Origin: a virus
IMG/VR virus record: IMGVR_UViG_3300024333_000005
Coordinates: 1 to 64,000 of that record
Direction: 5' to 3' (one strand)
Length of the DNA stretch: 64,000 nucleotides
Shown here: piece by piece, positions 1 through 15,325 of the stretch
How positions within the stretch are numbered: position 1 is the stretch's first letter
Layout: the number at the start of each line of letters is the position of its first letter
Notes under the pieces: model-generated
What the model saw: only the letters and a program-made list of their open reading frames with translations
What the model was told of the DNA's origin: nothing
Databases searched by the model: none
Made by a program: the position numbers and the translations under genes

Positions 1-12
1 TGCCGCTGTACG

Positions 13-2769
13 GTGGACGTGGAGAAGGGGGCCCAGGTCAAGGCCCCCGGGATGCCGGCCAAGCCGGGGCCTCCGCCTCCGAAGCCGCCGCCCCCGAAGC
101 CGGCCCCTCCGCCCGCTGTACCCCCGAAGCCCCCGGCCGCGGCCAAGCCTCCGCCAGCGCCGAAGCCGGCCCCTCCGCCTCCGAAGCCAACCCCCCCTCC
201 CGGGGCCTTCCCCTGGGCGGAGAGCGAGCTGACGGCCGGCCCCCCGAAGACGAAGGGGGCGCACGAGGGGTACTTCTACCGCGCCCCCGACGGGAGCGAG
301 TGGCTGTTCAAGCCGGTGCCCGAGCAACTGGCGGTCTCGGAGCGGGTGGCTTGCCACGACCTCGCGGTCCGCCTTGGGCTCCCTGGCCCCGACGCCTATG
401 CCGTCCGCCTCCGGGGCAAGCCGGGGGTCGTGCAGCGGTTGTTCCCCGGGGTGAAGGGCGACCTCGAAGGGATGCCCTTCGAGCAGCTCACCGAGAGCGA
501 CACGGACACCATTCTTCGGGAGGCGGCCTACAACTGGCTCATCGGCGAGAACGACGGCCACGCCGGAAACTGGCTGCGGCTCGCGGACGGCCGCCTGGTC
601 GGGATCGACAAGGGGCAGGCGTTCAAGTTCTACAACGCCGACAAGCTGGACTGGGACTACCACCCGAACACTGGCTTCCACGGCGGGCAGTACGACCACC
701 TGCTCCTTCGGGCCTACGCCCAGGGCCAGGGGCCGGCCAGCATTGATCCGGCCCGGCTTCCCCAGCTTGCCGCCTTCCTGGACCGGGTCGAAGCTCTGCC
801 GGACGAGGAGTTCCTGGCCATCCTGCGGCCGATGGCGGTCGGGCTGCACGCCGCCTCGGCCGGCAAGCCCTTGCCCGGGGTCTTCGGGCAGAAGGTCGGG
901 TGGTCGGTCGACCAGTTCCTCGAAGAGGCCCTGCGCCGGAAGAAGGGCCTGCGCCGGGACTTCCTCGGCTACCTGGAGCGGGCACAGAAGGAGCGCAACA
1001 AGGCCCTGGGGGTCCAGGTCCCGGCAGCCGCAACCCGGCGGGCTCGGCAGGCCGCGGCCACCGTCGCCGAACCAGGGGTGGTCACGCCGCTCAACGCCGA
1101 GTGGGTGCGGAAGGCCAAAGCCTCGGGCTGGCGCGGCCGTACCATGTTCCTGGGAGGCCAGGACTGGGAAGACATGCAGGCGGTGGGCTACACCTTGGAG
1201 GACGGCACCTTCATCCTGGAGGGCAAGCTGCGAGAGGATGGCAACAGAAGGCTCGTTGACGCAATCCTCTCCCGCGGGATAGCCGCCTCCACGTCCGAAT
1301 CTGGCGGAGCCCTGACCCCCTCCGAGTTCCGACTCCAGGCGCTTGCGTTTGCAATCGCGAAGCACACGAACCACCACTTCGACCCGGCCAGCCTCGGCTA
1401 CGACCAGAAGATCAACCTGAACCACAAGGCCAACGCCACAGAGGCTTGGCGCCTCATCAGGCAGATGGCGAAGTCGTCCAACCCCGACGAGCGGGCGGCC
1501 GCCAAGCACTACGCCGACTATCTCGGCGGCCTGTTGCACTGGGATGCCGAGGGCAACCCGACTTGGAAGGAGAAGCCCAAGCTGGCGAGCGCCGGACACA
1601 AGCTGGTGTCCTGGGCCGACGCGCCCCAGCGGCACGGGCTGAAGGGCCCACCCACGACCTTCCGCGAGCGGCCGGTCAACACCCCCAGCCGCCGGTTCCG
1701 GCCAGACGGGCCGCCGCAGGCGACCGACGAGCCGCCCCTGGAGTGGGGCGGCAAGATGTACGAGGGGCACCTGGCCCCCGGGGTCCAGCTCCGCTACGTC
1801 CCCTGGTCCTCCCCGGGGGCGTTCGCCGGCCGCATCGAGCTGGTGCTGGACAAGGCGGAAGCGACCCCCGCAGGGATCGAGGCGGCCCTGGTCAAGCTGC
1901 GGGAGCTGGGCGTCGAGTGCCGCCTGGCGGACAAGAAGGACCTCCGGCTCCTGTACCTGCGCAAGACCACCCGGGCCGCGAAGCTGGAGGGCTACGTAGG
2001 CTTCAGCCCCAAGGAGGACCGGCCGGTAGACGAGCAGATCAAGGAACTCCACACCGCCTGGAGCCGGCGGCTGGGGCGGCCGCCCGAGCAGATGCCGGGC
2101 TACCAGGAAGCGCCGACCTGGGACCACGAGGAGTTCGACGGCCGGCCCCGGTGGCTGCGGTTTGACGTATCCGACGAAGACATCGCCGCCTACCAGGAGG
2201 AGGGCTACACCATCGCGCAGAGCATCAACGCCCTCTCTGGCGGCGGCCATTTGGACAACAAGATCGGACAGGGGCACCTGGAAGCCATACTGAGAAGCGA
2301 CTCGCTGCTGTCTTCCTGCGAGCGAATGCGAGTCGGCATCTACAATGCTGTCTCGCGGCAGGGCGAATCGGTGGACCGCGATGTCCCCTCCGGCGGCGCG
2401 GCCTACGTTTTCACCCGGCTGCGAAGGTGGCAAGGCCGCGGAGCCCCGCCCTTCGACCTGGAGTTCGACCTGCGGCTCTGGAGGGACTGCGACGCAATCC
2501 ACTACTCCGGCGATATGTTTGGTCAGACCGTAAGGGGGGCCACTTCGCGGCGGATAAATGGGAACTGGGAGGGGAGCGCGGGGGCCGCCAGGAGTTCGCC
2601 AGATAACGAGCTGGACTTCAAGAGCCGGGTCGGAATGCTGGCCTGGCTGCGGGCTGTTCATGTCCGCTCCAAAGAGAGCCGGGAAGCGGTGCTGGACCTC
2701 TTCCGAAAGCTCGGCATCAAGAGGGTCCGGGGCCGGCCGATAGAAGCGCTGGTGAAGGTCGGGGGCTAG
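13..2769 (+). CDS. kinase-fold, proline-rich phage protein, possibly 5' partial
   Basis: The protein has about 918 residues from the GTG at 13, but the frame is open to base 1, so the true start may lie upstream. Residues 10-70 are a proline/lysine-rich linker (PPPPKPPPPKP). Residues about 80-330 look like a protein/lipid-kinase-like fold of the HipA/PI3K type: a candidate ATP lysine in WLFKP (K100), a catalytic-loop-like GENDGHAGNW (D181, H183, N186) and a metal-binding-like GIDKG (D199). The rest (about 350-918) I do not recognise. Parts near 1190-1400 and 2200-2700 are visibly less GC-rich than the surroundings, which may mean an acquired C-terminal domain. Its position just before head genes suggests a virion or minor-head-associated protein, as kinase-like domains are sometimes fused to such proteins. 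Function is inferred; the kinase fold is moderately supported. Confidence 0.6.
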   Translation: MDVEKGAQVKAPGMPAKPGPPPPKPPPPKPAPPPAVPPKPPAAAKPPPAPKPAPPPPKPTPPPGAFPWAESELTAGPPKTKGAHEGYFYRAPDGSEWLFKPVPEQLAVSERVACHDLAVRLGLPGPDAYAVRLRGKPGVVQRLFPGVKGDLEGMPFEQLTESDTDTILREAAYNWLIGENDGHAGNWLRLADGRLVGIDKGQAFKFYNADKLDWDYHPNTGFHGGQYDHLLLRAYAQGQGPASIDPARLPQLAAFLDRVEALPDEEFLAILRPMAVGLHAASAGKPLPGVFGQKVGWSVDQFLEEALRRKKGLRRDFLGYLERAQKERNKALGVQVPAAATRRARQAAATVAEPGVVTPLNAEWVRKAKASGWRGRTMFLGGQDWEDMQAVGYTLEDGTFILEGKLREDGNRRLVDAILSRGIAASTSESGGALTPSEFRLQALAFAIAKHTNHHFDPASLGYDQKINLNHKANATEAWRLIRQMAKSSNPDERAAAKHYADYLGGLLHWDAEGNPTWKEKPKLASAGHKLVSWADAPQRHGLKGPPTTFRERPVNTPSRRFRPDGPPQATDEPPLEWGGKMYEGHLAPGVQLRYVPWSSPGAFAGRIELVLDKAEATPAGIEAALVKLRELGVECRLADKKDLRLLYLRKTTRAAKLEGYVGFSPKEDRPVDEQIKELHTAWSRRLGRPPEQMPGYQEAPTWDHEEFDGRPRWLRFDVSDEDIAAYQEEGYTIAQSINALSGGGHLDNKIGQGHLEAILRSDSLLSSCERMRVGIYNAVSRQGESVDRDVPSGGAAYVFTRLRRWQGRGAPPFDLEFDLRLWRDCDAIHYSGDMFGQTVRGATSRRINGNWEGSAGAARSSPDNELDFKSRVGMLAWLRAVHVRSKESREAVLDLFRKLGIKRVRGRPIEALVKVGG

Positions 2770-3167: not shown

Positions 3168-3489
3168 CCTGGCCCTGTCCGAGATGCCGGGGGGCGGCCC
3201 TCCCTTCCGAGTGGTCGCAGTGCTGGCGGTGGACCCCCGCAACGGGGAGCACGCGGTGGCAACCGAGCTGGGGGCGGACGTGGTCCGGGCCAACATCGAG
3301 ACCCGAGTCATGGATGCCCGGAGAGCCGGCCGATCCCTGACCGACCTGCTCGACTACCTGGCCTCCCAGGGCAACCGCTACTTCCGCTCCTGGGAAACCC
3401 CGGAGAGCGTCCAGGCGCCGACCGTCGAGGCGGCAGCCGACCGGCTTCTCCTGTCCCTCCGCCCCGAGATGGAGGTCCCGCCCCTATGA
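3145..3489 (+). CDS. hypothetical protein
   Basis: A 114-residue protein. The ATG at 3145 is chosen over earlier in-frame starts because an AGGAG lies at 3133-3137 with good spacing, and because upstream residues would lie inside the previous gene. It has a short beta-rich start (MPVFVASSLALSEMPGG) followed by predicted helices. No known motif is seen. Its stop overlaps the queD start (ATGA at 3486), linking it to the preQ0 genes; whether it takes part in that pathway is unknown. Confidence 0.6.
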   Translation: MPVFVASSLALSEMPGGGPPFRVVAVLAVDPRNGEHAVATELGADVVRANIETRVMDARRAGRSLTDLLDYLASQGNRYFRSWETPESVQAPTVEAAADRLLLSLRPEMEVPPL

Positions 3490-3896
3490 GCACCATCGTC
3501 GTCGCCTGCGAACTGGAGTTCGACGCGGCTCATCGACTGCTCGGCCACCCGGGTCGGTGCGCTTCCCTGCACGGGCACCGCTACCGGGTCGAGGTCCGGG
3601 TGGCGGGCGGACCCGGCGAGGATGGCCTGGTGCTCGACTTCTCCGACCTCAAGGGCCGGCTGCGTGGCCTGCTCGACCCTTGGGACCATGCCACCCTGCT
3701 CCAGGAGGGCGACCCCCTGCTCCCGGTCCTGCGAGCTGACCCAACCTGCCGGGTGGTCGCCTGCCCCTGGCCCCCGACTGCGGAGCGGATGGCCGAGGCT
3801 GTCCACGGGAGCCTTGCCCGCTCCCTGCCGCCGGACCTGGCCGTCGCCGCGGTGACGGTCTGGGAGACCCCGACCAGCTCTGCCACCGCGGCATGA
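3486..3896 (+). CDS. queD: 6-carboxy-tetrahydropterin synthase QueD
   Basis: A 136-residue member of the 6-pyruvoyl-tetrahydropterin synthase/QueD family. It converts 7,8-dihydroneopterin triphosphate to 6-carboxy-tetrahydropterin, the second step from GTP to preQ0. Visible signatures are FDAAHRL (zinc ligand H16), LHGHRY (ligands H29 and H31), the catalytic cysteine C25 in HPGRC, WDHATLL and a PTAE motif in the second half. Length is normal for the family. It starts four bases inside the preceding stop and its own stop overlaps the queE start, so it belongs to a tightly coupled operon with queE, folE and queC. That context favours QueD over a biopterin enzyme. Confidence 0.93.
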   Translation: MSTIVVACELEFDAAHRLLGHPGRCASLHGHRYRVEVRVAGGPGEDGLVLDFSDLKGRLRGLLDPWDHATLLQEGDPLLPVLRADPTCRVVACPWPPTAERMAEAVHGSLARSLPPDLAVAAVTVWETPTSSATAA

Positions 3897-4561
3897 GCCG
3901 GGGCTACGCCGTCCACGAGGTCTTCGCCTCGCTCCAGGGCGAAGGTCTGCACACCGGCCGCCCCGCCCTGTTCGTCCGCTTCGCCGGCTGCAACCTGTGG
4001 TCCGGCCGGGAGCAGGACCGGGCCCGGGATGCCGAGCGCCATGAGGCGGCCTGCCCAGCCTGGTGCGACACCACCTTCCGGGGGCCGCCTGGCCGCCACG
4101 GTGGCCAGCTCTCTCTGGCCGCCCTGCTCCGGGCCTGCGAGCAGGAGGCCGACGGTGTCGCCTTCGTGGTCCTGACCGGCGGCGAGCCGCTGCTCCAGGC
4201 GGACGCCGAGCTGATCGGGGCCCTGCGCCGGCGGCTGGCGCTCCCCGTCCACGTCGAGACCAATGGGACCCTGCCCCTGCCCCCGGGGGCGAACCCGGAC
4301 TGGATCGCCCTCTCGCCGAAGACGCCGCCGGACCGGCTGGCCCTGCGGGTCTGCGACGAGCTGAAGGTGGTCTACCCCTCGCCGGTTCCCCCGGTGGCCT
4401 ATGCCCAGGCGCTCCGGGTCCTGGCCCGGGATGCCCTGCTCGTGCAGCCGCGGGCGGGACCCGACTTGCCGGCGGCCGTCGGGGCGTGCATCCTGTACGT
4501 CCGGGAGCACCCCGGCTGGCGGCTCGGGGTGCAGGCGCACAAGGTCCTCGGCTTGCCGTGA
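3893..4561 (+). CDS. queE: 7-carboxy-7-deazaguanine synthase QueE
   Basis: A 222-residue radical-SAM enzyme that rearranges 6-carboxy-tetrahydropterin to 7-carboxy-7-deazaguanine. Signatures are an N-terminal EVFASLQGEG, the cluster region CNLWSG...CPAWCDT, TGGEPLL (SAM-binding GGE), HVETNGT and SPKTPP. The cluster cysteines appear to be C33, C54 and C58, a C-X20-C-X3-C spacing that is longer than common QueE arrangements (see findings). It is translationally coupled to both neighbours by 4-base overlaps. Family assignment is firm. Confidence 0.93.
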   Translation: MSRGYAVHEVFASLQGEGLHTGRPALFVRFAGCNLWSGREQDRARDAERHEAACPAWCDTTFRGPPGRHGGQLSLAALLRACEQEADGVAFVVLTGGEPLLQADAELIGALRRRLALPVHVETNGTLPLPPGANPDWIALSPKTPPDRLALRVCDELKVVYPSPVPPVAYAQALRVLARDALLVQPRAGPDLPAAVGACILYVREHPGWRLGVQAHKVLGLP

Positions 4562-5220
4562 CCCCCTTCGACCTCGACCGAGTCCGCTCCCACCTGGAGC
4601 GGGCCACCGCGGCTCTGGCCGTCCCCGGCGACCCCGAGCAGGCGCGGGTGGCTCTGTGGCAGGAGGCAGTAGCCCTCCAGCTCGCGCTGATGGGGGAGGA
4701 CCCGGGGCGGGAGGGCCTGCGGGACACCCCCGCCCGGGTGGTCCGCTACTGGCAGGAGGCCCTATCGGGCTACGCCGTCGACCCTGCCGCCATCCTGGCC
4801 CGGTCCTTCGAGGAGACCGAGGGCTACGACGAGCTGGTGCTGGTGCGGGACATCGCCTTCGACTCGACCTGCGAGCACCACCTGCTCCCGTTCCGCGGCA
4901 CGGCGGCGGTCGGGTACGTCCCCTCCCAGATGCCCCAGGGCCGGGTGCTCGGGCTGTCGAAGCTGGTCCGCCTGGTCCGCTGCTACTCCGCCCGGCTTCA
5001 GCTCCAAGAGCGCATGACCCGCCAGATCGCGGCCGCCCTCTGGGAGCACCTGCGCCCGCTGGGCGTCGGGGTGGTGATCCGGGCGGCGCACGGGTGCATG
5101 GAGTGCCGGGGAGTGCGGGCGAACGGGGCCAACGCGGTGACCTCGGCCATGATGGGGGTCTTCCGCCAGGACCCGTCTGCCCGGGCCGAGCTGCTCGCCC
5201 TCTGCGGGGCGGCCCCGTGA
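4558..5220 (+). CDS. folE: GTP cyclohydrolase I
   Basis: A 220-residue FolE. It opens the GTP ring to give dihydroneopterin triphosphate, the entry step for 7-deazaguanine synthesis. Zinc-site residues are visible in STCEHHLLPF (C105, H108) and HGCMEC (C180); GLSKLVRLV and QERMTRQIA are family signatures. The GTG at 4558 overlaps the queE stop (GTGA) and gives a family-typical length, so it is preferred to start codons further upstream inside queE. Its presence in the queDEC run suggests it supplies DNA modification rather than folate. Confidence 0.93.
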   Translation: MTPFDLDRVRSHLERATAALAVPGDPEQARVALWQEAVALQLALMGEDPGREGLRDTPARVVRYWQEALSGYAVDPAAILARSFEETEGYDELVLVRDIAFDSTCEHHLLPFRGTAAVGYVPSQMPQGRVLGLSKLVRLVRCYSARLQLQERMTRQIAAALWEHLRPLGVGVVIRAAHGCMECRGVRANGANAVTSAMMGVFRQDPSARAELLALCGAAP

Positions 5221-5717
5221 CCTGGTTCTGGGCCGGCCTCTACCTGGCTGCGGCGGTGGCCGCGAACCTGGCGGTGGCGGCCTGGGGCCCGGCCGCCACC
5301 CTCCCGGCGGCAGCCCTCTGCATCGGGTGCGACCTCACCGCCCGGGATGCCCTGCACGAGCGCTGGGAAGGGCCGGGCCTGGTCGGGCGCCTGGGCGCCC
5401 TGATTGCCGCGGGGTCTGCGCTGACCTACCTCGCCTCCCCGGCTGCGGGCCGGGTGGCCCTGGCCTCTCTCCTGGCCTTCGCCGTCTCGGCCACGGTGGA
5501 CTCGCTCGCCTACGGCGCTCTGCGCCAGCACATTCCTCTGGTGCGGGTCAACGGGTCCAACCTGGCTTCGGCTCTCGCGGACTCCCTGGTCTTCCCCACG
5601 GTGGCCTTCGGTGCCCTGCTCCCCTGGGTGATCCTCGGGCAGTTCGTCGCCAAGGTGGCGGGCGGCGCCCTCTGGTCGCCCCTGGTAGTGGCCCTGCGCC
5701 GGCGGAGGGCAGCGTGA
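5217..5717 (+). CDS. VUT/YhhQ-family transporter, probable 7-deazaguanine precursor uptake
   Basis: A 166-residue, strongly hydrophobic protein with about five or six membrane segments, for example AGLYLAAAVAANLAVAAW, GALIAAGSALTYLA and ALASLLAFAVSATVDSLAYG. The second segment carries CIGCDLTARDALHERW, similar to the family's intramembrane aspartate motif. YhhQ (VUT, DUF165) proteins import preQ0/preQ1 in bacteria, and placement between folE and queC fits that. The start is GTG 5217, overlapping the folE stop. The exact substrate is inferred from context. Confidence 0.75.
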   Translation: MTWFWAGLYLAAAVAANLAVAAWGPAATLPAAALCIGCDLTARDALHERWEGPGLVGRLGALIAAGSALTYLASPAAGRVALASLLAFAVSATVDSLAYGALRQHIPLVRVNGSNLASALADSLVFPTVAFGALLPWVILGQFVAKVAGGALWSPLVVALRRRRAA

Positions 5718-6406
5718 CCCCGATGCCGGCAGTGGTGCTGCTCTCCGGCGGGCAGGACTCGACCACCTGCCTGTACTGGGCCCGGGAGCGCTTCTCCCCG
5801 GTCGCGGCTCTGGCGGTCAACTACGGCCAGCGGCACGTGGCCGAGCTGTTGGCGGCCCGGGCGGTGGCCGAGCTGGCCGGCGCCTCCTTCCGCCTCCTGA
5901 CCCTGGAGGCCCTGACGCAACTCGGGGGCTCGGCTCTGCTCCCGGGTGGCGGCGAGCTGCGGGAAGCGGGCGGCCTGGTCGACGCCGAGGCCCCGGCCGG
6001 GCTCCCAACCTCCTACGTCCCCGGCCGCAACCTGCTCCTGCTCGGGCTTGCCGGGGCCTACGCGGCCAGTCTGGGAGTCCGGGACCTGGTGTGTGGGGCG
6101 AGCCAGGCGGACTACTCGGGCTACCCCGACTGCCGGCGCCCGTTCATGGATGCGATGGAAGCGGCCCTGACCCTGGCCCTCCCGACCACCTGCGGCCCCC
6201 TCCGCGTCCACGCTCCCTTGATGAACTGCACGAAGGCCGACACGGTGCGCCTGGCCTGGGCCCTTCCCGGGTGCTGGGAGGCGCTGGCCCTGACCGTGAC
6301 CTGCTACCGGGGCCTGCGGCCGGGCTGCGGCGTCTGCCCGTCCTGCCGGCTGCGGGCCCGGGGCTTCGCCGAGGCCGGTCGGCCCGACCCTGCGGCAGGG
6401 GCCTGA
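5714..6406 (+). CDS. queC: 7-cyano-7-deazaguanine (preQ0) synthase QueC
   Basis: A 230-residue ATP-dependent enzyme converting 7-carboxy-7-deazaguanine and ammonia to preQ0. It has the PP-loop LLSGGQDSTTC (S11-S16), YGQRH, VPGRN, and a C-terminal zinc cluster C197...C205-GV-C208-PS-C211. The GTG at 5714 overlaps the transporter stop; ATG 5723 is an alternative giving MPAVVLLSGG. It has no fused amidotransferase domain, unlike the Gat-QueC form linked to archaeosine-type DNA modification. It ends one base before the DpdA-like fusion gene. Confidence 0.93.
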   Translation: MTPMPAVVLLSGGQDSTTCLYWARERFSPVAALAVNYGQRHVAELLAARAVAELAGASFRLLTLEALTQLGGSALLPGGGELREAGGLVDAEAPAGLPTSYVPGRNLLLLGLAGAYAASLGVRDLVCGASQADYSGYPDCRRPFMDAMEAALTLALPTTCGPLRVHAPLMNCTKADTVRLAWALPGCWEALALTVTCYRGLRPGCGVCPSCRLRARGFAEAGRPDPAAGA

Positions 6407-6407
6407 C

Positions 6408-9400
6408 GTGCCCAAGGTCCGCACCACCCTCTTCTACGTCACCCTCCCCTGGGGCACGCCGCTCCTGAAGCGGATGCGCATCGAGAACGTCATGGTCAGC
6501 TTCCGCCACTTCGGGCGGAAGCTGCCAGAGTTCCCCCGGCTCATCGTCGACTCGGGGGCCTACTCGGACGCCAAGCTGCGCAAGGGCGAAGGTGAGGGGA
6601 AGGGCCGGGAGAAGGAGGACCGGAGCGGCAAGGGGTACGCCCGCTACCTCGACGAGTCGCCGGCCGAGCGGAGCGTGGTCTTCCGCGTCATGATGGACAA
6701 GATCGGGGACCAGCCGGCGACCTGCCGCCGCTTCGACCGGCACCTGGCCAAGGGGCACTCCTGCGCCTTCGTCTACTACTCCGACGCCCGGGTGACGCCG
6801 GCGGTGGAGGCGGCCCTCAAGCGCTCCCTGACGGCCGCCGGCGCAGCGTGCTTCGCCGGCATCACCACCGGCTACCTGATCGCCCGCAAGATCGGGATGA
6901 ATGAGGTCTTCCGGGGCCTGGAGCGGTGGTGGGGGGCGGTGGAGAAGGTCCTGGGCAAGGGCCCCCGTCCCCGGACCCACCTGCTCGGTTCCTTCCGCAT
7001 CCCGGTGCTGTCCCGCTTCCCCTTCACCTCGGCCGACATCTCCTCGCACTTCCTGGCCAACCGCTACGGCCGCTTCTGCACCTACCTCCGGGACGAGCGG
7101 GGCCTGCGGGTCTCGGGCATTCCCCACCACCAGGCGAAGAACGTTGAGGGCCGGCTCTCGCCGGCCATGCGTAGGCTCCAGGAGGCCAGCTACGCCTCGG
7201 CCCGCAAGCTGGGGCTCGACCTCGACGTGGAGGACGACCGCTACTGTTGGAACATCCGGGCCTACAAGCTGCTGGAGGCGGCCCTGGCCCGGGGCGACGT
7301 GGAGAAGGCCGATGCCGGGCTCCTGCTCGACACCCCGGGCCTGACCCCCTGGGCGGAGGGGGCGGTGGCGCCTCCTTCCTCGGTGGCCTACGACTTCGGC
7401 TTCTCCCCGGGGGAGCTGGCCGACCTCGGCAAGACCGAGGACGAGCATGACGGAGAGCGGGAGGGAGCCGAGGACCCGGGGGACGAGTGGGCGGCCGACG
7501 ACGAGGCCGAGGACCAGGGCGAGGACTCGGCCGAGGCGACGGCGAAGGACGCCATCACCACCGACGCCCTGGCAACTGGCGGCCGCAAGGCCCCCGAGCA
7601 GGGCGGTCCTCCGCCCCGGCGCCGCCGGCGCCGGCAGGAGGAAGAGGAGAAGGCGGCGCCCCCGACCGGAGTGCTGCCGGCGCTCAAGATGCCGGACCCG
7701 GCCTTTCTGCTCGACCGCCTGGAGGCGGGCGAGTCGGCGGGCATCCTCTCCCGCCGGGCGCAGGCGGAGCGGGTGGGCGAGCCCGAGTTCCTGGTCAACG
7801 AGGTCGCGCCGCTCGGCTTCGACCGGGCCTTCGTCTGGGCGGTGGTAAAGCACGGAGCGGCCGAGGCGGTCGCCGACCTGTCCGCGCTGGACCCGCTGCG
7901 CCGGGCCGGGGTAGACGCTCTCGCCCGCCAGGAGTTCGCCGGGGAGCGGGACTTCTTCTACCTGCCCCTGGAGCTGGTCGAGCGCTACGAGGCGCCCCTG
8001 CCCCTCAAGCGCCCGCCGGCGGGCCGGCGCTTCGGGGCCGAGGTGGACCTGGAGCGGGACGTGGCAAAGGCCGCGGTCCCTTCCCTGCCCCCCGCCGGCG
8101 ACGACCCGCCCGAGGCCGAGGCAGACGACGAGGGCGAAGGTGAGGTTGGCAAGCGGGTCCGCCAGCCGTTCGGAGCGCCAGCCGGCAAGTCGGCGGTGGC
8201 CGGCCGGGTGGCCGCGGGGCTCCCCCGCCACCGGACCTACGTGGAGCCCTTCGCCGGCGGGGCCGCGGTCCTGTTCGCCAAGGCCCCTTCGTCGTCGGTG
8301 CGGGAGGTCCTGGCGGACCTGGACCCCGAGGTCGTCGGCGCCTTCTCCTTTCTCCAGCGGGCGACCTCCCGGGACCTGGACGATCTGCGGGCACGGGACT
8401 GGCGCTCGACCCCCGAACAGCTCCGGCAGGCGGTGGCCCTGCAACCCCGCTCCGACGCCGAGCGCTTCTGGCGGCTCGCGATGCGCCGGTACTCGGGCTG
8501 GCGAGCGGCGAGCGGCGGCTACAACCCCGCCCGGCAAGGGCGGGTCTCGACCTTGCCCGGCCGCCTGGAAGAGGTCCAGCGGCGCCTCGCCGGGGTGGTG
8601 CTGCGGCGCCAGGACTGGCGGGAGACCCTGCGGGAGTTCGACGCCCCCGACTCGTTCTTCTACCTCGACCCGCCCTGGCCCTCCCGCAAGGGGGCAGCGC
8701 CCGAGGGCCTGGAGCCGGCCACTCTGGCGGCCGCTCTGGCGACCCTCAAGGGCACCTTCCTTCTGCACTACGACCCGGCCCACGCCGACGCCTTCCGCCG
8801 GGAGGGGTGGGGGCTGCGGGAGGCCGATGGGCTTCTGGAGGTCACGAACGCCCCGGACCGGGTGGGCAAGGCCGCGGCCGAGCCCACGCCCGGGGAGCTG
8901 GCGGCGGAGTGCCGCGGACTCCTCCGCAAGCTGGCCCAGGACGCCCCAGGACGCACGGAAGCGGTCTGCCGGCTGGGGGAGCCCGGCCCGGACGATCTCG
9001 CGGCCCTGCGGGCCGCTCCGGGCCGCCTGCAAGCCGCGGCCGAGGCGCTGGCCGCGGTGGAGCTGGTGACCCCCGAGCCCTCCCCCGGCCCGGGCGACCC
9101 GGCCGCCCGTCTGGCCGCCCTCCTTCCCCGGCTGTTCCCGGCCCTGGAGGGGGCGGACGAGCTGCACAAGGCCCTGGAGGGTGGGCATGAGGCGGCCGCC
9201 CTGCTCGCCCGCCTGGGCGGGTTCTCCGGCACTGGCGACGGTGGTAGCGCCAGGCTTTGCCCCGCGTGCCTCGCTGCCCCTGCCCCGGAGGCTACCTGCC
9301 GGGTGGTGAAGGTGCTGATCGCCGGGGTGGGCTCCGTGCCTCCCGAACGGCTCGACGCCGAGAGGCTGCGGGACCTCTCCGATGGCCAGCTCCGGGAGGC

Positions 9401-12400
9401 CGACGCTTCCCTCCACGGGCTCTACGACCGGGCCTTCGGCGAGGGCGGGAAGGGCGGCGAGAACCGGGAGGTCCTGGTCAACGCCCACCTGTTCGTGCTC
9501 GCCGAGCTGCGCCGGCGGCGCCTGGCCCACGAGGGGGACCAGGGCGACCCCCTGGACGCGGCGACTCTGGCCCTGGCGCCCGACGCCTATCGGGGGACGG
9601 CGAAGGCTGCCGGACCCGCGTCAGACCGTACCACCGCCGCAGTCTACCCCGGCGGGCAGGAGGACTTCGGGAGCGAGATCGCCCTCTCCGAAGTGCTCCC
9701 CTACGCCCAGGACATCGTGCTCCGGGCGCCGGCCGTCTACGTGGTGGGCGGCCTGGCGGTCCACGGCCGCACCCGGGGCGACCTCGACCTCCTGGTGCGG
9801 GGGCCGCTCGACGAGGCCACCCGGCGGGTGGTCGAGTTCCGCCTGGGCCGGATGCTGCCGCCCGACCTCTCCCAGCGGGTGCAGTTCCTCGACGACGAGC
9901 TGGGCGGCCCCTTCACCGACCACGTCGAGCTGTACGACCTGGTGCTGCGCCGGCGGGAGGACCTGGGGGTCAAGCGGATGCGGCTGGAGAAGGCCGACGA
10001 CCCCCTGCTCGACCTGCCGCCCCGAGGGAGCCAGAAGCGGTCCTCCGCGTTGCAGTACCACTTCCGGGGCCGCTCCCTGCACGCCGACCTCCGCTTCAAG
10101 GTGGCCGACGACTACCTGGTGGGCTGGACTCTGGCCCTCCAGCGGGAGGGCCGGACCCCCGACGTGAACTCGGTCGCCGAGGCCAAGCAGATCGCGGCCA
10201 CCTTCTCCCCGGAGGGGAGCCGCTACTCCAAGCCCTTCCTCGCCCCGGCCCGACTCTGGGCTACCCCCAAGGCCCGGCAGCCGGTGGCGTGGCTGAACAT
10301 CGAGGCGGAGACCTTCGCCCCCGGCTCGGTCGGGGCGACCCGCTTCGAGGAAGGCACCATCGTCCTGGTCGACCGGCCCCGGGTCGAATGGGGGCTCCAG
10401 AAGCCCTACAGCCACGAGTACTTCCTGACCGGCAAGGGGCCGCTCGTCGGCATCCTCTTCTTCCGCCTGCTCGTCGGCGAAGGCGAGGGGGACGAGACGC
10501 CGGCTCGGACCCCGGAGGGCGAAGCCTTCTGGACCTGCACCCTGACCCGCAGCCTGCTCCCCGGGGTGCTCAAGCCGCGGGCGGTGGAGACCGGCGACGT
10601 GCCGCCCCAGCACTACTCCGGCCTGCCGGCGACCCTGGCCGAAGTGGTGCCGTCCTCCTTCCGCTACTGGGAGGCGGCGACGCCCCGGGAGCGGCGGGAG
10701 GTGCGGGACGCCCTGGTCGGCGAGCGGTTCTTCACCGAGGCCGGCATCCGGCTGGTCGACGGCGAGTTCCGCCGAGTGGTGCAGAAGCTCTACGTCTACA
10801 CGCCCCAGGCGGCCGACCTGGCCAAGGGGCCGCCGGTGGTCGACTTCGCCCTCTCCCGCCAGACCTGGCAGGGGCAGACCGTGATCCGGGGGGTGCCCTC
10901 CCGCACCGTCTGGCACCTGGTCCTCGATGGGCCGGGCGAGGGGCTGCGGGGCTGGGAGCTGCAAGCCGACCCGCTGGAGGAAGGGGAGCGAGTCGCGGCC
11001 CTGGCCCACGACCACCCGGAGAAGGAGCTGCTGCACTTCGAGGGCGAGGTCAAGCCGGGTGCCCGAATCGGGGGCGAGGTCCTGAACCCCACCCGGGCGA
11101 CGCCCTCCGACGTGGCCCTGCTCGACCGGGGCAAGGCCACCATCCTCGACGACGTGCCCGGCCGGCTGCGGGTCCGCTTCGCCGGTCGCAAGCTGCACGG
11201 CGCCTGGACCCTGGTTCAGGAAGAGGAGCGCTCGCCGGTCTGGACCCTGGGCCGGGGCGAGCTGCCCGGTCGCCGCCAGGCCGAGAAGGAGGCCGGCGAG
11301 GGGGCAGAGGACGGCCGCGGCCGCGGCGACCTGGAGAAGCGCACCGGCAGCCGAGGCCCCTACCCGCACGACGAGTGCATGTTCCCCCGCTGCTCCAAGG
11401 CCCCCGAGGTCGAAGTGGTCTGGGCCGACGGCCGCGGCCGGGCCTGGTTCTGCAAGGAGCACCTCGCCCGCTGGCGGGACCGGGGGGAGCCCGACGGCGA
11501 CCCGCCTGGCGACCGGGAGATCATCCGGGAGCGGGAGGTCGAGGGGGGCCGGGTCGGCCCCCGCTACGGGGCGCCCCCGCTGGCCAAGGCCATCCCCCTC
11601 CGAGATGGCGTCCAGGTCTGGGACCCCGACCGGCGGGACCCCGAAGCCGACCGTACCCAGCTCCGGCCCCTGGCCCTGTTCCGCCCGCAGAAGCCGGCGC
11701 CCCGGCCGACCAACGAGTTCCGCGACCCGGAGGATGCCCTGGCCTTCGCCACGCCCGCGGCCCTGCGGGACGGCATCCTGGTCGAACCCAAGTGGAACGG
11801 CTTCCGGGTAGTGGCCGAGAAGGCCGGCGGCCGAGTCCTGATCTTCACCGAGGACACCCAGCGGGACATCTCCCCGGCCCTGCCCGGGGTCACCCGGGAG
11901 CTGGCCGGGCTGCGGGGCGACTACGTGCTCGACGCCGAGCTGATGGCCTTCGACGGCGAGAGCCCCGTTCCCCGCCGGGAGCTGGCCCGCTTCCGGGGCG
12001 AGCGGCCGACCGACGACGCCCAGGCCGCGCTCTGCGTCCACGACGCCCTTTACCTCCCCGGGCCGGGGAACCTGACGGCGAAGACCAACGCCGAGCGGCG
12101 GGCGGCCCTGGAGGCGTACCTGCCCGCTCGGGCGAAGCACCTGCGCCTCTCCCCGGCCCGGCTGGTCCACCGGGAGGCGGCCCTGCGGGAGGCCCTGCGC
12201 TGGGCCTCCCATCTCCCCGGCTCCGAGGGGGCCATGCTCAAGCTCGCCGGCTCCACCTACAGCCTGGGCGGCGAGAACGACGGCTGGGCGAAGTTGAAGC
12301 TGGTGCGGGAGGTCCTGGCCATCGTCTACCGGCTGGAGCCGGTCGAGGGCTCTCCTGGCGTCCACACCCTCTACTGCGCCGTCGGCCCCATCCCCCCCGA

Positions 12401-13088
12401 CGAGCGGGACCGCTGGCGGGAGGTGGTCGAAGTCGCCGGGAAGCTGGCCACGCCCATCGGCCGGACCTTCAACACGAAGGCGGACGTTGAGGTCGGCAGC
12501 GTGGTTCGGGTGGAGGTCACCGAGCTGCTGTCCGACCAGCGGCCGGAGGCCAAGCGGTCCCTCACCTGGTTCACCCCGACGGTGGTGGAGGGCCCGGTCG
12601 AGCGGCGGCCCATGACCCCCGCCGAGGCCGAGGCCCTTCTCCTCCCCGGCGAGGTCAAGAAGCTCCTGGCCGAGGCCGCAGTGGCGAAGGACCTGGAGGT
12701 GATCGCCAAGGCCGGCGACGGCGAGCACTACGCGCTGGGGGTGGTGCTGGAGCCGACCGACGAGGCGGCCGGGCTCAAGCCCGACGCCCAGCATGACGTG
12801 TACTCGGCCGAGGAAGTCCAGCGGGCGGCCCACTACTTCATGGAGGCCGGCGGCCGGATCGGCTTCATGCACCGGGAGATCATCGGGGACAAGGCCCGGG
12901 TGCTGGAGACCTACCTCGCTCCGGTCACCTTCGAGCTGCCCCTTCCCGGCGGCGGAGTGCGGCGCATCCGGGAGGGAACCTGGCTGCTCGCCCTCCGGGT
13001 CCTTGACGCCGACCTCTGGCAGGCTGTAAGGTCGCGGAAGTTCGCCGGCCTGTCGGTCGGCGGCACGGCGCGCCGGGAGGCCGCTTGA
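6408..13088 (+). CDS. giant fusion: DpdA-like transglycosylase, DNA methyltransferase, nucleotidyltransferase, ligase, XkdF protease
   Basis: One 2226-residue open frame. Residues 1-330 resemble TGT-fold DpdA proteins: DSGAYSD (D48), MMDKIGD (D97, D101), ITTG, HLLGSFR and a following FTSADIS; DpdA inserts preQ0 into DNA. After a charged linker, 580-810 is a D12-type adenine methyltransferase (EPFAGGAA near 613, DPPW at 754-757). About 1085-1190 is nucleotidyltransferase-like (YVVGGLAVHG then DLDLLV). About 1210-1650 has LigD-phosphoesterase-like pieces (YHFRGRSLHADLRF, HGAWTL). A C..C..C..H finger lies near 1655-1690. About 1770-2060 is an ATP-dependent ligase core: EPKWNGFR with K1795 (KxNG, not the usual KxDG), VLDAELM, EGAMLKL, WAKLK. 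Residues 2090-2226 match XkdF prohead proteases (H2155 in GFMHRE, S2216 in GLSVGG). It starts at GTG one base after queC. Whether it is cleaved, or internal starts are used, is unknown. Confidence 0.75.
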   Translation: MPKVRTTLFYVTLPWGTPLLKRMRIENVMVSFRHFGRKLPEFPRLIVDSGAYSDAKLRKGEGEGKGREKEDRSGKGYARYLDESPAERSVVFRVMMDKIGDQPATCRRFDRHLAKGHSCAFVYYSDARVTPAVEAALKRSLTAAGAACFAGITTGYLIARKIGMNEVFRGLERWWGAVEKVLGKGPRPRTHLLGSFRIPVLSRFPFTSADISSHFLANRYGRFCTYLRDERGLRVSGIPHHQAKNVEGRLSPAMRRLQEASYASARKLGLDLDVEDDRYCWNIRAYKLLEAALARGDVEKADAGLLLDTPGLTPWAEGAVAPPSSVAYDFGFSPGELADLGKTEDEHDGEREGAEDPGDEWAADDEAEDQGEDSAEATAKDAITTDALATGGRKAPEQGGPPPRRRRRRQEEEEKAAPPTGVLPALKMPDPAFLLDRLEAGESAGILSRRAQAERVGEPEFLVNEVAPLGFDRAFVWAVVKHGAAEAVADLSALDPLRRAGVDALARQEFAGERDFFYLPLELVERYEAPLPLKRPPAGRRFGAEVDLERDVAKAAVPSLPPAGDDPPEAEADDEGEGEVGKRVRQPFGAPAGKSAVAGRVAAGLPRHRTYVEPFAGGAAVLFAKAPSSSVREVLADLDPEVVGAFSFLQRATSRDLDDLRARDWRSTPEQLRQAVALQPRSDAERFWRLAMRRYSGWRAASGGYNPARQGRVSTLPGRLEEVQRRLAGVVLRRQDWRETLREFDAPDSFFYLDPPWPSRKGAAPEGLEPATLAAALATLKGTFLLHYDPAHADAFRREGWGLREADGLLEVTNAPDRVGKAAAEPTPGELAAECRGLLRKLAQDAPGRTEAVCRLGEPGPDDLAALRAAPGRLQAAAEALAAVELVTPEPSPGPGDPAARLAALLPRLFPALEGADELHKALEGGHEAAALLARLGGFSGTGDGGSARLCPACLAAPAPEATCRVVKVLIAGVGSVPPERLDAERLRDLSDGQLREADASLHGLYDRAFGEGGKGGENREVLVNAHLFVLAELRRRRLAHEGDQGDPLDAATLALAPDAYRGTAKAAGPASDRTTAAVYPGGQEDFGSEIALSEVLPYAQDIVLRAPAVYVVGGLAVHGRTRGDLDLLVRGPLDEATRRVVEFRLGRMLPPDLSQRVQFLDDELGGPFTDHVELYDLVLRRREDLGVKRMRLEKADDPLLDLPPRGSQKRSSALQYHFRGRSLHADLRFKVADDYLVGWTLALQREGRTPDVNSVAEAKQIAATFSPEGSRYSKPFLAPARLWATPKARQPVAWLNIEAETFAPGSVGATRFEEGTIVLVDRPRVEWGLQKPYSHEYFLTGKGPLVGILFFRLLVGEGEGDETPARTPEGEAFWTCTLTRSLLPGVLKPRAVETGDVPPQHYSGLPATLAEVVPSSFRYWEAATPRERREVRDALVGERFFTEAGIRLVDGEFRRVVQKLYVYTPQAADLAKGPPVVDFALSRQTWQGQTVIRGVPSRTVWHLVLDGPGEGLRGWELQADPLEEGERVAALAHDHPEKELLHFEGEVKPGARIGGEVLNPTRATPSDVALLDRGKATILDDVPGRLRVRFAGRKLHGAWTLVQEEERSPVWTLGRGELPGRRQAEKEAGEGAEDGRGRGDLEKRTGSRGPYPHDECMFPRCSKAPEVEVVWADGRGRAWFCKEHLARWRDRGEPDGDPPGDREIIREREVEGGRVGPRYGAPPLAKAIPLRDGVQVWDPDRRDPEADRTQLRPLALFRPQKPAPRPTNEFRDPEDALAFATPAALRDGILVEPKWNGFRVVAEKAGGRVLIFTEDTQRDISPALPGVTRELAGLRGDYVLDAELMAFDGESPVPRRELARFRGERPTDDAQAALCVHDALYLPGPGNLTAKTNAERRAALEAYLPARAKHLRLSPARLVHREAALREALRWASHLPGSEGAMLKLAGSTYSLGGENDGWAKLKLVREVLAIVYRLEPVEGSPGVHTLYCAVGPIPPDERDRWREVVEVAGKLATPIGRTFNTKADVEVGSVVRVEVTELLSDQRPEAKRSLTWFTPTVVEGPVERRPMTPAEAEALLLPGEVKKLLAEAAVAKDLEVIAKAGDGEHYALGVVLEPTDEAAGLKPDAQHDVYSAEEVQRAAHYFMEAGGRIGFMHREIIGDKARVLETYLAPVTFELPLPGGGVRRIREGTWLLALRVLDADLWQAVRSRKFAGLSVGGTARREAA
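8943..8961 (+). repeat. dispersed in-frame repeat, copy A
   Basis: The 19-base core GCCCCAGGACGCACGGAAG occurs here and at 40680-40698 and 59065-59083. It is read as APGRTE in each host gene. Here it lies between the methyltransferase and nucleotidyltransferase parts of the fusion protein, in the context LAQDAPGRTEAV. The match extends imperfectly about ten bases upstream. Confidence 0.8.
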
Positions 13089-14104
13089 GTGGACCTGCGA
13101 AGGACGACGACGACCTCTACCGCCTGCGGGACCTCAAGGTGGAGGAGGTCAGCATCGTCGACCGCCCGGCCAACCGCATCGAGTGGCTCATCGTCAAGCG
13201 AGACGGGGAGGACCCCATGAGCGCAGGCCCCGAGGTCCGCGAAGGCGCGGACGGGAAGCTCACGGTCGCCAAGGCCGACCCGGCCAAGCCGGAGGACGAG
13301 GCGGCGAAGGCCAAGGTTCCGCCCGAGGACGAGGCGGCGAAGGCGAAGGCTCCGAAGCCCGAGGACGCCGAGAAGGCCGGCGGCCGGCTGGAGGCCGGTG
13401 CCCGGGAGGCGGCCGAGCGGCTGCTCTCCCTGGCCAACCAGGCCAAGGGCAAGGCCCCCGACGCGGCGATGCTCCGGGAGCTGAAGGCGGTCTCGGGCCT
13501 GCTCACCGGGCTCGCCGACAAGTACCCCTCGCCGAAGGCCGGCGTGGCGAAGGCGGAGGCCGACCTGATCGCCGAGGGTCGGACCTTCGACGGGGTGCTG
13601 CACACCGCGGCCCAGGCCATCCTCGGCGGGTCCCGGGAGCAGGCGGCCGCGGCGGTCGCCGGCGTCCGGGCCGCCATCGACTACGCGGTCGGGAAGGCCG
13701 CGAAGGTCGAGGACGAGGAGCCGGAGGACGAGGCGAAGGCGAAGGCCGCGAAGCCGAAGGACCTCCCCGGGGCCGGCAAGCGGTTCACCGCCGAGCGGGT
13801 CGGCAAGCTGACCTCGGCGCTCGGCTCGCTGCTCGACGTGCTCAAGGACCTGGGCGTCACCAACCTCCCCGCCCTGCTCAACGTGGCGAAGAGCGACGGC
13901 ACGGCGGAGGGCGAGGTGATCGCCAAGGCCCTGTCCGCGGTGGGCGTCGACGCCGAGGCGGCCCGGGCCGCCGAGGCCGACGGCAAGCTCGCCGACCTCC
14001 AGAAGCGGCTCGACCGCCTGGAGACGGCGGGCCTGGCGAAGGGCCTGGGCGGCGACGCGGTCGCCAAGGCCGTGAAGCCGGACCTCTGGAAGGGGATCGT
14101 CTAG
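13085..14104 (+). CDS. scaffold protein with XkdF C-terminal segment
   Basis: A 339-residue, Ala/Lys/Glu-rich, probably helical protein immediately before the major capsid gene, as expected of a scaffold. Its first 45 residues contain LKVEEVSIVDRPANR and LIVKRDG, which normally form the end of XkdF-type proteases, so the protease family signature is split between this gene and the end of the preceding fusion. The TTG at 13085 overlaps the previous stop (TTGA), implying termination-reinitiation. An internal ATG at 13217 preceded by GGGGAGG at 13206-13212 could make a shorter scaffold of about 295 residues lacking that segment, similar in arrangement to lambda C/Nu3. Runs of EDEAAKAK repeat near residues 65-95. 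Confidence 0.75.
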   Translation: MSGPAKDDDDLYRLRDLKVEEVSIVDRPANRIEWLIVKRDGEDPMSAGPEVREGADGKLTVAKADPAKPEDEAAKAKVPPEDEAAKAKAPKPEDAEKAGGRLEAGAREAAERLLSLANQAKGKAPDAAMLRELKAVSGLLTGLADKYPSPKAGVAKAEADLIAEGRTFDGVLHTAAQAILGGSREQAAAAVAGVRAAIDYAVGKAAKVEDEEPEDEAKAKAAKPKDLPGAGKRFTAERVGKLTSALGSLLDVLKDLGVTNLPALLNVAKSDGTAEGEVIAKALSAVGVDAEAARAAEADGKLADLQKRLDRLETAGLAKGLGGDAVAKAVKPDLWKGIV

Positions 14105-14120: not shown

Positions 14121-14137
14121 CCGTGGAGGGCTGCACC

Positions 14138-15325
14138 GTGACCAACGAAGAGCTGCTTCGCAAGGCCGTCATCACCACGGACGCCCTGGCGGCGGCCGGC
14201 AAGCTGAACCCCGAGCAGGCGGACAAGTTCATCGACTTCGTCCTGGACGAGACCGCCCTCAAGGGTTCGGTCAGGACCATCAGGGTCAAGACCGACTGGG
14301 AGATCAACAAGATCGGGGTCGGCGCCCGGGTCGCGATGCCCGCGGCCGAGGCCAAGGACCCCGGCCTCCGGCGCGGCATCACCACCTCCAAGGTGACGCT
14401 CAACGCCAAGGAGGTGATCGTCCCGTTCGAGATCGGGGACTCCTTCCTGGAGGAGAACATCGAGGGCGAGCCGAGCGCCGAGCACATCGTCCGCCTCATG
14501 GCGACGAAGGCGGCGAACGAGCTGGAGGAGCTGGGAATCCTGGGCGACGCCCTGGGCGTGGCGGCCCTGGAGTCCGACCTCATCGAGGGCGGCGACGCGG
14601 TCCGGCACGTCCGGGACTCCTACCTCGCCCTCTTCGACGGGTACGCCCGGCTCGCCGACGGCGGCAGCATCTTCAACGCCGCCGGGGCCAACATCGGGCT
14701 CTCGATCTTCGGCGGCATGCTCCGGGCCATGCCGACCAAGTTCCGCAAGGACCCCCGGCGCCTGCGCTACCTGGTGAGCCCCGACCTGGAGCAGCTCTGG
14801 CGGGAGCGGGTCAGCACCCGCGGCACCGCCCTGGGCGACCAGGCGGTGCAGGGCGACTCCCGGATCAAGGCGTTCGGGGTCGAGATGGTGCCCCTGCCGC
14901 TGCTCCCCTTCCGGCCCCGGGTGGTCGAGCACGTGGTCCTGAACGGTCTGGTCGCCGCCACCCTGCGGTACCAGAACCTCGCGAACGCCGTCGTCCACCT
15001 GGCGACCCTGGGGAACGTCCCGACCGCCCCCTACACCGCCGGCGTCGACTACACCCTCGACGCGGCGGCGGGGACCATCGTCCGCATCGGCGGCGGCGGC
15101 ATCGCCGACGGGGCGACGGTCAAGGTCACCTACGACTCGCCCCCCATCGCCATCCTGACCCACTTCGAGAACCTGCTCCTGGCCATCGGGCGGGACATCC
15201 GCATCGAGAAGGACCGGGACATCTTCCGGCGGGTCAACCAGTACGCCATCACCATCAAGGTCGGGGTCGGGGTCGAGGAGGCGGCGGCCATCGTGAAGGC
15301 CCGCAACCTCGGCACCGGCATCTAG
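14138..15325 (+). CDS. major capsid protein
   Basis: A 395-residue protein, the likely HK97-fold coat protein. GTG 14138 is preferred to GTG 14123 because the earlier codon forms part of the GTGGAGGG ribosome-binding region, 7 bases upstream. N-terminal helices (TNEELLRKAVITTDALAAAGKL) are followed by a beta-rich body with DFVLDET, TTSKVTLNAKEVIVPFEIGD and a helix near 120 (IVRLMATKAANELE). Length, position after protease and scaffold, and the pattern DxFLEENIEGE resemble PBSX/XkdG-like capsid proteins. No delta-domain-like N-terminal extension is apparent, consistent with a separate scaffold. Confidence 0.85.
   Translation: MTNEELLRKAVITTDALAAAGKLNPEQADKFIDFVLDETALKGSVRTIRVKTDWEINKIGVGARVAMPAAEAKDPGLRRGITTSKVTLNAKEVIVPFEIGDSFLEENIEGEPSAEHIVRLMATKAANELEELGILGDALGVAALESDLIEGGDAVRHVRDSYLALFDGYARLADGGSIFNAAGANIGLSIFGGMLRAMPTKFRKDPRRLRYLVSPDLEQLWRERVSTRGTALGDQAVQGDSRIKAFGVEMVPLPLLPFRPRVVEHVVLNGLVAATLRYQNLANAVVHLATLGNVPTAPYTAGVDYTLDAAAGTIVRIGGGGIADGATVKVTYDSPPIAILTHFENLLLAIGRDIRIEKDRDIFRRVNQYAITIKVGVGVEEAAAIVKARNLGTGI

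Follow-up and report, generated by a model that had tools for sequence, protein, structure and literature searches.

Why would a virus encode enzymes that modify and repair DNA in the same polypeptide as its prohead protease? This question is raised by one reading frame in the window analyzed here, a stretch of 64,000 nt (positions 1 to 64,000 of the IMG/VR virus record IMGVR_UViG_3300024333_000005). An initial annotation, made from the sequence alone, described in this frame a DpdA/TGT-like domain, a D12 adenine methyltransferase, a nucleotidyltransferase-like domain, pieces resembling the phosphoesterase (PE) of LigD, a zinc finger, an ATP-dependent ligase core and an XkdF-type protease, in this order, and noted that the combination was unfamiliar. 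Our analysis confirms that a late gene of the head operon encodes this chain of enzymes with the catalytic residues retained, followed by the prohead protease XkdF.

An intact giant frame

The frame opens with a GTG codon and runs over 2226 codons with no internal stop. Its GC-content at codon positions 1, 2 and 3 is 0.77, 0.51 and 0.94, respectively, and the same pattern was observed in the neighboring genes. Two additional IMG/VR assemblies (L002 and L003) match the window at 100% over 21,085 bp, the fusion sequence is identical across the three assemblies and its homologues span 43–71% GC. The single frame assumed in the initial annotation is therefore real: stops or frameshifts separating the domains are excluded by the open frame and the three identical assemblies, and the latter, together with the codon-position GC, rule out a misassembly or frameshift artefact. 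We also considered that the frame might be an assembly error, a read-through of unrelated genes or a decayed fusion without function, since high GC-content generates long chance ORFs on both strands. The long antisense ORFs of this locus are indeed a by-product of its 74% GC, and GC3 and homology ruled them out as true genes. The fusion itself presents identical assemblies, homologous fusions across a broad range of GC-content and retained catalytic residues; the artefact version of this explanation is already refuted and the explanation as a whole is highly improbable.

The end of the 85-kb record joins the start of the window and the two are contiguous in L003, which indicates that the genome is circular or permuted.

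The head operon and its preQ0 genes

The operon reads, in order, terminase, portal, MuF-like protein, QueD, QueE, YhhQ, QueC, fusion, scaffold-like protein and major capsid protein (Table 1). The QueC stop lies one base ahead of the fusion start, and the start of the scaffold-like gene overlaps the fusion stop. The major capsid protein matches annotated capsid proteins at 35–38%. The fusion is thus encoded among virion and portal-terminase genes, as are phage polyvalent proteins. The preQ0 pathway genes that are expected near a DpdA were found directly upstream of the fusion (QueD, QueE, YhhQ and QueC), and homologues of the QueE-like gene adjoin other DpdA fusions; FolE (GTP cyclohydrolase) was not found when preQ0 pathway genes were sought in the genome. 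Based on this gene order, the DpdA domain represents the end of a preQ0 pathway within the head operon. The preQ0 genes (window 3486–6406) are embedded in this operon and not in the early region.

Table 1. Features of the fusion and of its operon. Coordinates are window positions unless the record is named; aa, residues of the fusion.
Feature	Coordinates	Strand	Basis
Terminase large subunit	81033-82457 of record		
Portal	82485-84212 of record		
MuF-like protein, 1265 aa, HipA-like segment	84214 of record across join to window 1..2769	+	L003 junction
QueD (PTPS family)	3486..3896	+	Pfam E 5.5e-29
QueE-like radical SAM	3893..4561	+	Pfam E 1.9e-7
YhhQ-like (Vut_1) preQ0 transporter, start uncertain	5094..5717	+	Pfam E 1.1e-12; phrog_4899 E 8e-32
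QueC, start uncertain	5723..6406	+	Pfam E 8.5e-62
Fusion polyprotein, 2226 aa	6408..13088	+	ORF and translation; L002/L003 copies; GC3 0.94
DpdA-type (TGT-like) transglycosylase, aa 20-300, D48 and D210	6465..7307	+	leave-out HMM; invariants; model/Foldseek
Domain common to arrays, aa 415-565	7650..8102	+	46% identity to L015
D12 adenine methyltransferase, aa 582-795, DPPW 754-757	8151..8792	+	Pfam; PHROG 56; residue check
Helical domain ahead of nucleotidyltransferase, aa 983-1063	9354..9596	+	kept in most arrays
Pol-beta-type nucleotidyltransferase, aa 1073-1192, GG...DxD (D1125, D1127)	9624..9983	+	11-relative alignment
PE1, LigD-type phosphoesterase, aa 1203-1400, H1218, H1225, D1227, R1229	10014..10607	+	ligand conservation; homology to PE2
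PE2, second LigD-type phosphoesterase copy, aa 1478-1631	10839..11300	+	TIGR02777 E 7e-6; 3p43 E 7e-7
Putative zinc finger, Cys/His-rich, about aa 1655-1700	11370..11507	+	sequence pattern; 39% match to L029
ATP-dependent DNA ligase core and OB fold, aa 1776-2075	11733..12632	+	Pfam; motifs; Foldseek
XkdF (Peptidase_S78_2) prohead protease, aa 2097-2224, H2155, E2167, S2216	12696..13079	+	Pfam; residues
Scaffold-like protein, xKA-rich	13085..14104	+	N-terminal match phrog_3017/13975; KA counts
Major capsid protein (phrog_1623)	14123..15325	+	E 2.1e-67

Because the preQ0 genes belong to the same late operon as the fusion, the DpdA substrate would be made when the fusion is made. This, and the position of the array next to the portal and scaffold genes, would fit a finishing step during packaging, in which an array retained inside the procapsid or at the portal seals nicks, cleans 3′ ends, methylates and inserts preQ0 before being destroyed or expelled along with the scaffold and the protease. 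ATP, SAM and preQ0 would, however, need to reach enzymes inside the procapsid, fusion would not be needed for the methylase and DpdA to act at an earlier stage and, to our knowledge, large cargo does not normally remain where HK97-type proteases have acted. We therefore consider such a step unlikely.

Like the fusion, the MuF-like protein contains more than one domain: it has a HipA/PI3K-like segment and a further C-terminal domain (HipA_C, E = 0.0017; the MuF call is based on motif and position), and may be a second polyvalent protein. A PI3K-like match is also present in L029 (4693–7407). Relative to the junction of the record end (85241) with window position 1, L002 carries an in-frame insert of ~277 codons in this protein (L002:128–959) that is absent from L003. 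The insert begins with Cys, ends with Ser-Asn before a Cys and matches Pfam Intein_splicing under the cut-off (E = 3.6e-4); it is probably an intein that one population carries and another lacks.

Domains of the fusion

Each domain was tested separately with stock profiles and with profiles built from relatives. Apart from the nucleotidyltransferase and the zinc finger, which were named from motif or pattern, the claimed domains were significant, and the list and order given in the initial annotation proved correct; to these we add the helical domain and the domain at aa 415–565, the latter also present in L038, L039, L043–L046 and L048. With stock profiles, the XkdF, ligase and D12 segments all scored over their Pfam cut-offs, whereas the LigD PE was not significant with Pfam alone (LigD_N, E = 0.11) and the nucleotidyltransferase segment matched neither Pfam nor any other library.

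Among the base-modification domains, DpdA scores weakly with stock models (E = 4.6e-6 for phrog_887). When 21 relatives were combined into a profile that left out the window sequence, aa 20–237 was matched with E = 3e-14 among 1436 sequences. Residues D48-S49-G50, D97, H191 and D210 are shared by all 23 sequences compared, and the domain presents the two catalytic Asp in a TGT-like barrel. Searching phage records with tblastn gave no match and a first search of viral contigs recovered identical copies only; our initial doubt on this call was overturned by the leave-out profile and by L020 and L040, which contain DpdA domains. The D12 domain was matched by Pfam over aa 593–760 (E = 4.4e-7; 30.3 bits relative to a cut-off of 22) and by PHROG 56 (E = 3e-22).

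In the central part of the chain, the nucleotidyltransferase was named from its motif, as library searches gave no match. Its G-G and D-x-D signature is kept in 11 relatives, including the archaeal virus ANMV-1; the third acid varies among relatives, and the structural model is of low confidence in that region. For the phosphoesterase, a profile of ten relatives matched the solved archaeal PE 3p43 (E = 7e-7), as well as 3p4h (E = 1.8e-5) and the LigD PE 3n9b (E = 0.017); the match to TIGR02777 (E = 7e-6) fell under the curated cut-off. The two copies are homologous, and thus form a tandem (hhalign 93.8%; E = 1.8e-7), but the metal ligands are kept in PE1 only: in an alignment of relatives the H-x(6)-H-x-D-x-R ligands of PE1 are in register, with H/H/D invariant and R nearly invariant. 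The putative zinc finger owes its name solely to its Cys/His pattern, located at about aa 1655–1690, with no profile support.

The ligase presents motifs I, III, IV and V and the OB fold of ATP-dependent DNA ligases, and the motif residues K1795, E1844, E1940, K1945 and K1962 are invariant or nearly so (DNA_ligase_A_M, aa 1788–1964; Pfam E = 2.5e-17, over the cut-off). Structure prediction supports the ligase fold and, more weakly, that of DpdA. The OB fold was found in the model of the ligase, with a Foldseek match to DNA ligases at E = 3e-16; the output for this 1177-aa model was dominated by the ligase, which masked the PE, nucleotidyltransferase and XkdF folds. The AlphaFold model of DpdA (mean pLDDT 75; pTM 0.78) found tRNA-guanine transglycosylase 3bld as its best PDB match, with a weak E of 2.8e-3. 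No match to a LigD primase-type polymerase domain was detected in the fusion chain by profile searches. At the C-terminus, XkdF was matched by Pfam over the cut-off (E = 5.5e-18), and H2155, E2167 and S2216 are invariant across 10 arrays.

The fusion therefore unites enzymatic domains of several kinds in a single chain, another property of polyvalent proteins, and these form two sets: one for base modification (DpdA and D12) and one for end repair (nucleotidyltransferase, PE and ligase). From their families, DpdA is predicted to insert preQ0 and D12 to methylate adenine at N6, and the nucleotidyltransferase, 3′-phosphoesterase and ATP-dependent ligase are predicted to heal and seal ends.

A family of viral arrays

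Related viruses with the same or a split architecture were found in numbers. A search of IMG/VR with the PE domain yielded 95 relatives, of which 80 were kept. Using local profiles, 88 loci were grouped into 67 clusters at 90% identity (window left out), nearly all of them viral. The ligase is found in the same ORF as the PE in 42 of the 67 clusters and in an adjacent ORF in 14; the nucleotidyltransferase shares the ORF in 30 clusters and lies nearby in 17. XkdF ends the array in 25/67 clusters and is a separate downstream gene in 9/67, and a protease-capsid fusion lies next to the array in four. No protease was found fused or nearby in the other 29 clusters, which implies that capsid targeting driven by XkdF is not general. 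Among clusters with more than 4 kb of flank, a portal gene lies upstream in at least 27 of 49 and a capsid protein downstream in at least 34 of 53; these counts are lower bounds because the profiles of those genes were built from few sequences.

The cargo of the arrays is shuffled and includes DpdA, D12, C5 methylase, 2H, metallo-beta-lactamase and UDG. One array (L013) consists of the core alone and is 50% identical to the fusion. In L015, the D12 domain sits between the two PE copies, and in L004 the set is split over two genes with an additional 2H and C5 methylase. The extra cargo is UDG in L005 and metallo-beta-lactamase in L026 and L027. In ANMV-1, a nucleotidyltransferase-ligase-tandem PE protein adjoins the portal gene.

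The 2H domain, which is also present in the L055 array, raises the question of whether the ligase, PE, nucleotidyltransferase and 2H domains mend tRNA or mRNA after cleavage by anti-phage nucleases of the host. RNA ends can be substrates for families of the PE and nucleotidyltransferase kinds. However, the ligase most resembles OB-fold DNA ligases and the other cargo (D12, C5 methylase, UDG and DpdA) is DNA-directed, so that RNA repair appears very unlikely.

Some array proteins seem, from their domain matches, to carry inteins themselves: in L022 (2968–7926), Intein_splicing/Hint-like matches lie within the ligase, and in L024 (3143–6133) a LAGLIDADG domain interrupts PE1. In cellular genomes, PE arrays were detected at four loci among 84,980: L104, L106 and L107, on contigs of Archaeoglobales and Thermoprotei MAGs, and one locus in a planctomycete MAG. 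The three archaeal loci probably represent viral contigs that were binned with archaea, since L106 contains portal and capsid genes.

Recurrent link between DpdA and the protease

Searching for DpdA returned 76 loci; at about 69 of them DpdA is a gene of its own, frequently in the vicinity of QueC. DpdA and XkdF share one ORF in L109/L110, L112, L113 and L115, are linked in L049 and L055, and are encoded by consecutive genes in L111. In L114, DpdA lies with the ligase-PE set in one ORF that is cut by the contig end. The DpdA-XkdF link is thus observed in at least seven contig groups other than the window, which shows that it is recurrent. Genes of the preQ0 pathway were found near L109, L111–L113, L115, L049 and L055.

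The ordinary phage DpdA is a stand-alone gene product that acts in the cell (PMC6884629), as at the 69 or so loci above, and XkdF is a separate gene in many arrays. Both observations would agree with a fusion that merely co-ordinates expression, with enzymes freed by XkdF or by host proteases to work on replicating DNA of the producing cell and XkdF alone entering the capsid. This explanation leaves unaccounted for the repeated joining to XkdF, as well as the location of the ligase, PE, nucleotidyltransferase and varied cargo in the head operon rather than in a replication module, and it is in our view doubtful.

Protease and candidate cleavage sites

Across 27 scaffolds, Lys-Ala was observed 205 times relative to 134 expected, while Arg-Ala is depleted (36 and 56, respectively). 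In the linkers of the arrays, a pattern taken from the scaffolds, [VTIA][AEGQS]KA, was counted 25 times (7.1 ± 2.4 in shuffles), but its Arg analogue is raised too (15 relative to 7.5). Because this Arg control also increases, the linker test is not taken as proof of cleavage and the motif was dropped in that role. A related Lys-Ala pattern occurs seven times in the fusion, always near or at domain boundaries; the motif is a post hoc observation, and the pattern used on the fusion was picked after inspection. The enrichment in scaffolds and linkers is suggestive and predicts candidate cleavage sites. In the fusion, the predicted cuts would follow Lys residues close to aa 300, 554, 821, 1066, 1195, 1727 and 2101.

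A model for the fusion

Capsid targeting is the simplest reading of the fusion, because both enzyme sets are joined to a prohead protease. We propose, with a probability of about 0.48, that the fusion is a capsid polyvalent protein targeted by XkdF, whose enzymes are co-ejected to modify and repair the phage DNA; packaging and cleavage are steps that we infer. XkdF would dock the enzyme chain within the procapsid alongside the scaffold and the capsid protein, and would then cut both the scaffold and the linkers between domains, possibly after the Lys of xKA motifs. Once released, the enzymes would stay in the head alongside the genome and accompany it into the next cell. There, they could mend nicks and broken ends resulting from entry, circularisation or restriction damage and finish the protective base modification. 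The recurrence of the same module between portal and capsid genes in dozens of viruses, with shuffled cargo, argues for capsid targeting. Against it, the preQ0 genes of the same operon fit action in the producing cell equally well, and a 240-kDa chain must fit in the procapsid.

A broader proposal is more tentative: phages of bacteria and archaea may carry in their capsids an NHEJ-like end-repair and base-modification kit, made as a polyprotein, cut by the maturation protease and traveling with the genome. Similar arrays in the capsid operons of dozens of unrelated viruses suggest that phages load a protection and repair kit into the head, and the array family has many members, is widely distributed and is confined almost entirely to viruses. 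If virions do deliver ligase, 3′-end processing and base-modification enzymes, the early survival of phage DNA, by circularisation, restriction resistance and repair of damage incurred in the particle, need not depend on host enzymes. Base modification would, if this is true, be tied to capsid assembly.

Comparison with known systems

Several elements of the fusion are already known separately: polyvalent proteins, D12-XkdF fusions, DpdA and the LigD PE. For their combination, searches of the open-access literature returned nothing relevant on ligase or PE in virions, on the ANMV-1 ligase or on DpdA with a capsid protease, and no report of a PE-ligase-nucleotidyltransferase set in head operons, fused to a prohead protease or to DpdA. 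The impression of the initial annotation that this combination was unknown is thus retained as far as descriptions in that literature are concerned; the fusion belongs, however, to a broad family of shuffled arrays, and effectors joined to a capsid peptidase at the C-terminus are already described among polyvalent proteins (PMC5512222).

Phage polyvalent proteins that are packaged in the capsid and end in an assemblin-like peptidase have been reported (Iyer et al. 2017, PMC5512222). Like the fusion, they contain multiple effector or enzyme domains per chain, a virion-gene context and a capsid-type peptidase at the C-terminus; like the arrays, they present pol-beta nucleotidyltransferase and methylase cargo in shuffled architectures (PMC5512222). 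Pol-beta domains are there chiefly those of firmicute mobile elements, and the terms “DNA ligase”, “queuosine” and XkdF do not occur in the main text of that paper. The fusion differs by its core, a DNA-end-repair set with base modification.

Prohead proteases of the XkdF/PBSX type resemble the fusion in that their gene sits between the portal and the scaffold or capsid genes, and PHROG 13242 likewise joins D12 to XkdF. In contrast to the fusion, the members of both groups that we examined are without nucleotidyltransferase, PE, ligase and DpdA. The XkdF of PAK_P3 (L185:2919–3335, 138 aa) is annotated as “DNA methyltransferase”, and PHROG 1530 is labelled likewise. We considered the XkdF genes of PAK_P3 and of a Lactococcus phage that bear this label as further fusions and rejected them, the PAK_P3 gene being XkdF alone. 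Methylase-XkdF fusions suggest why this stand-alone XkdF bears the label, which was probably carried over from them.

The DpdA of phage 9g presents the same catalytic Asp residues and has QueD, QueE, QueC and YhhQ nearby (PMC6884629), whereas in the fusion DpdA forms part of a giant protein, encoded in the head operon, that ends in a prohead protease. In other phages, 7-deazaguanines protect DNA from restriction (PMC6884629).

The ANMV-1 protein AJP62006, annotated as “ATP-dependent DNA ligase”, shares with the fusion the nucleotidyltransferase, ligase, tandem PE and a position next to the portal, but is without XkdF, DpdA and D12 and differs in domain order. Finally, bacterial LigD of NHEJ also unites polymerase, 3′-phosphoesterase and ligase kinds in one polypeptide, with a PE of the same family. 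The fusion differs from LigD by a pol-beta-type domain in place of the primase-polymerase and by a tandem PE, joined to a capsid protease and DNA-modification domains, and thus constitutes a new and compact version of the polymerase-phosphoesterase-ligase set.
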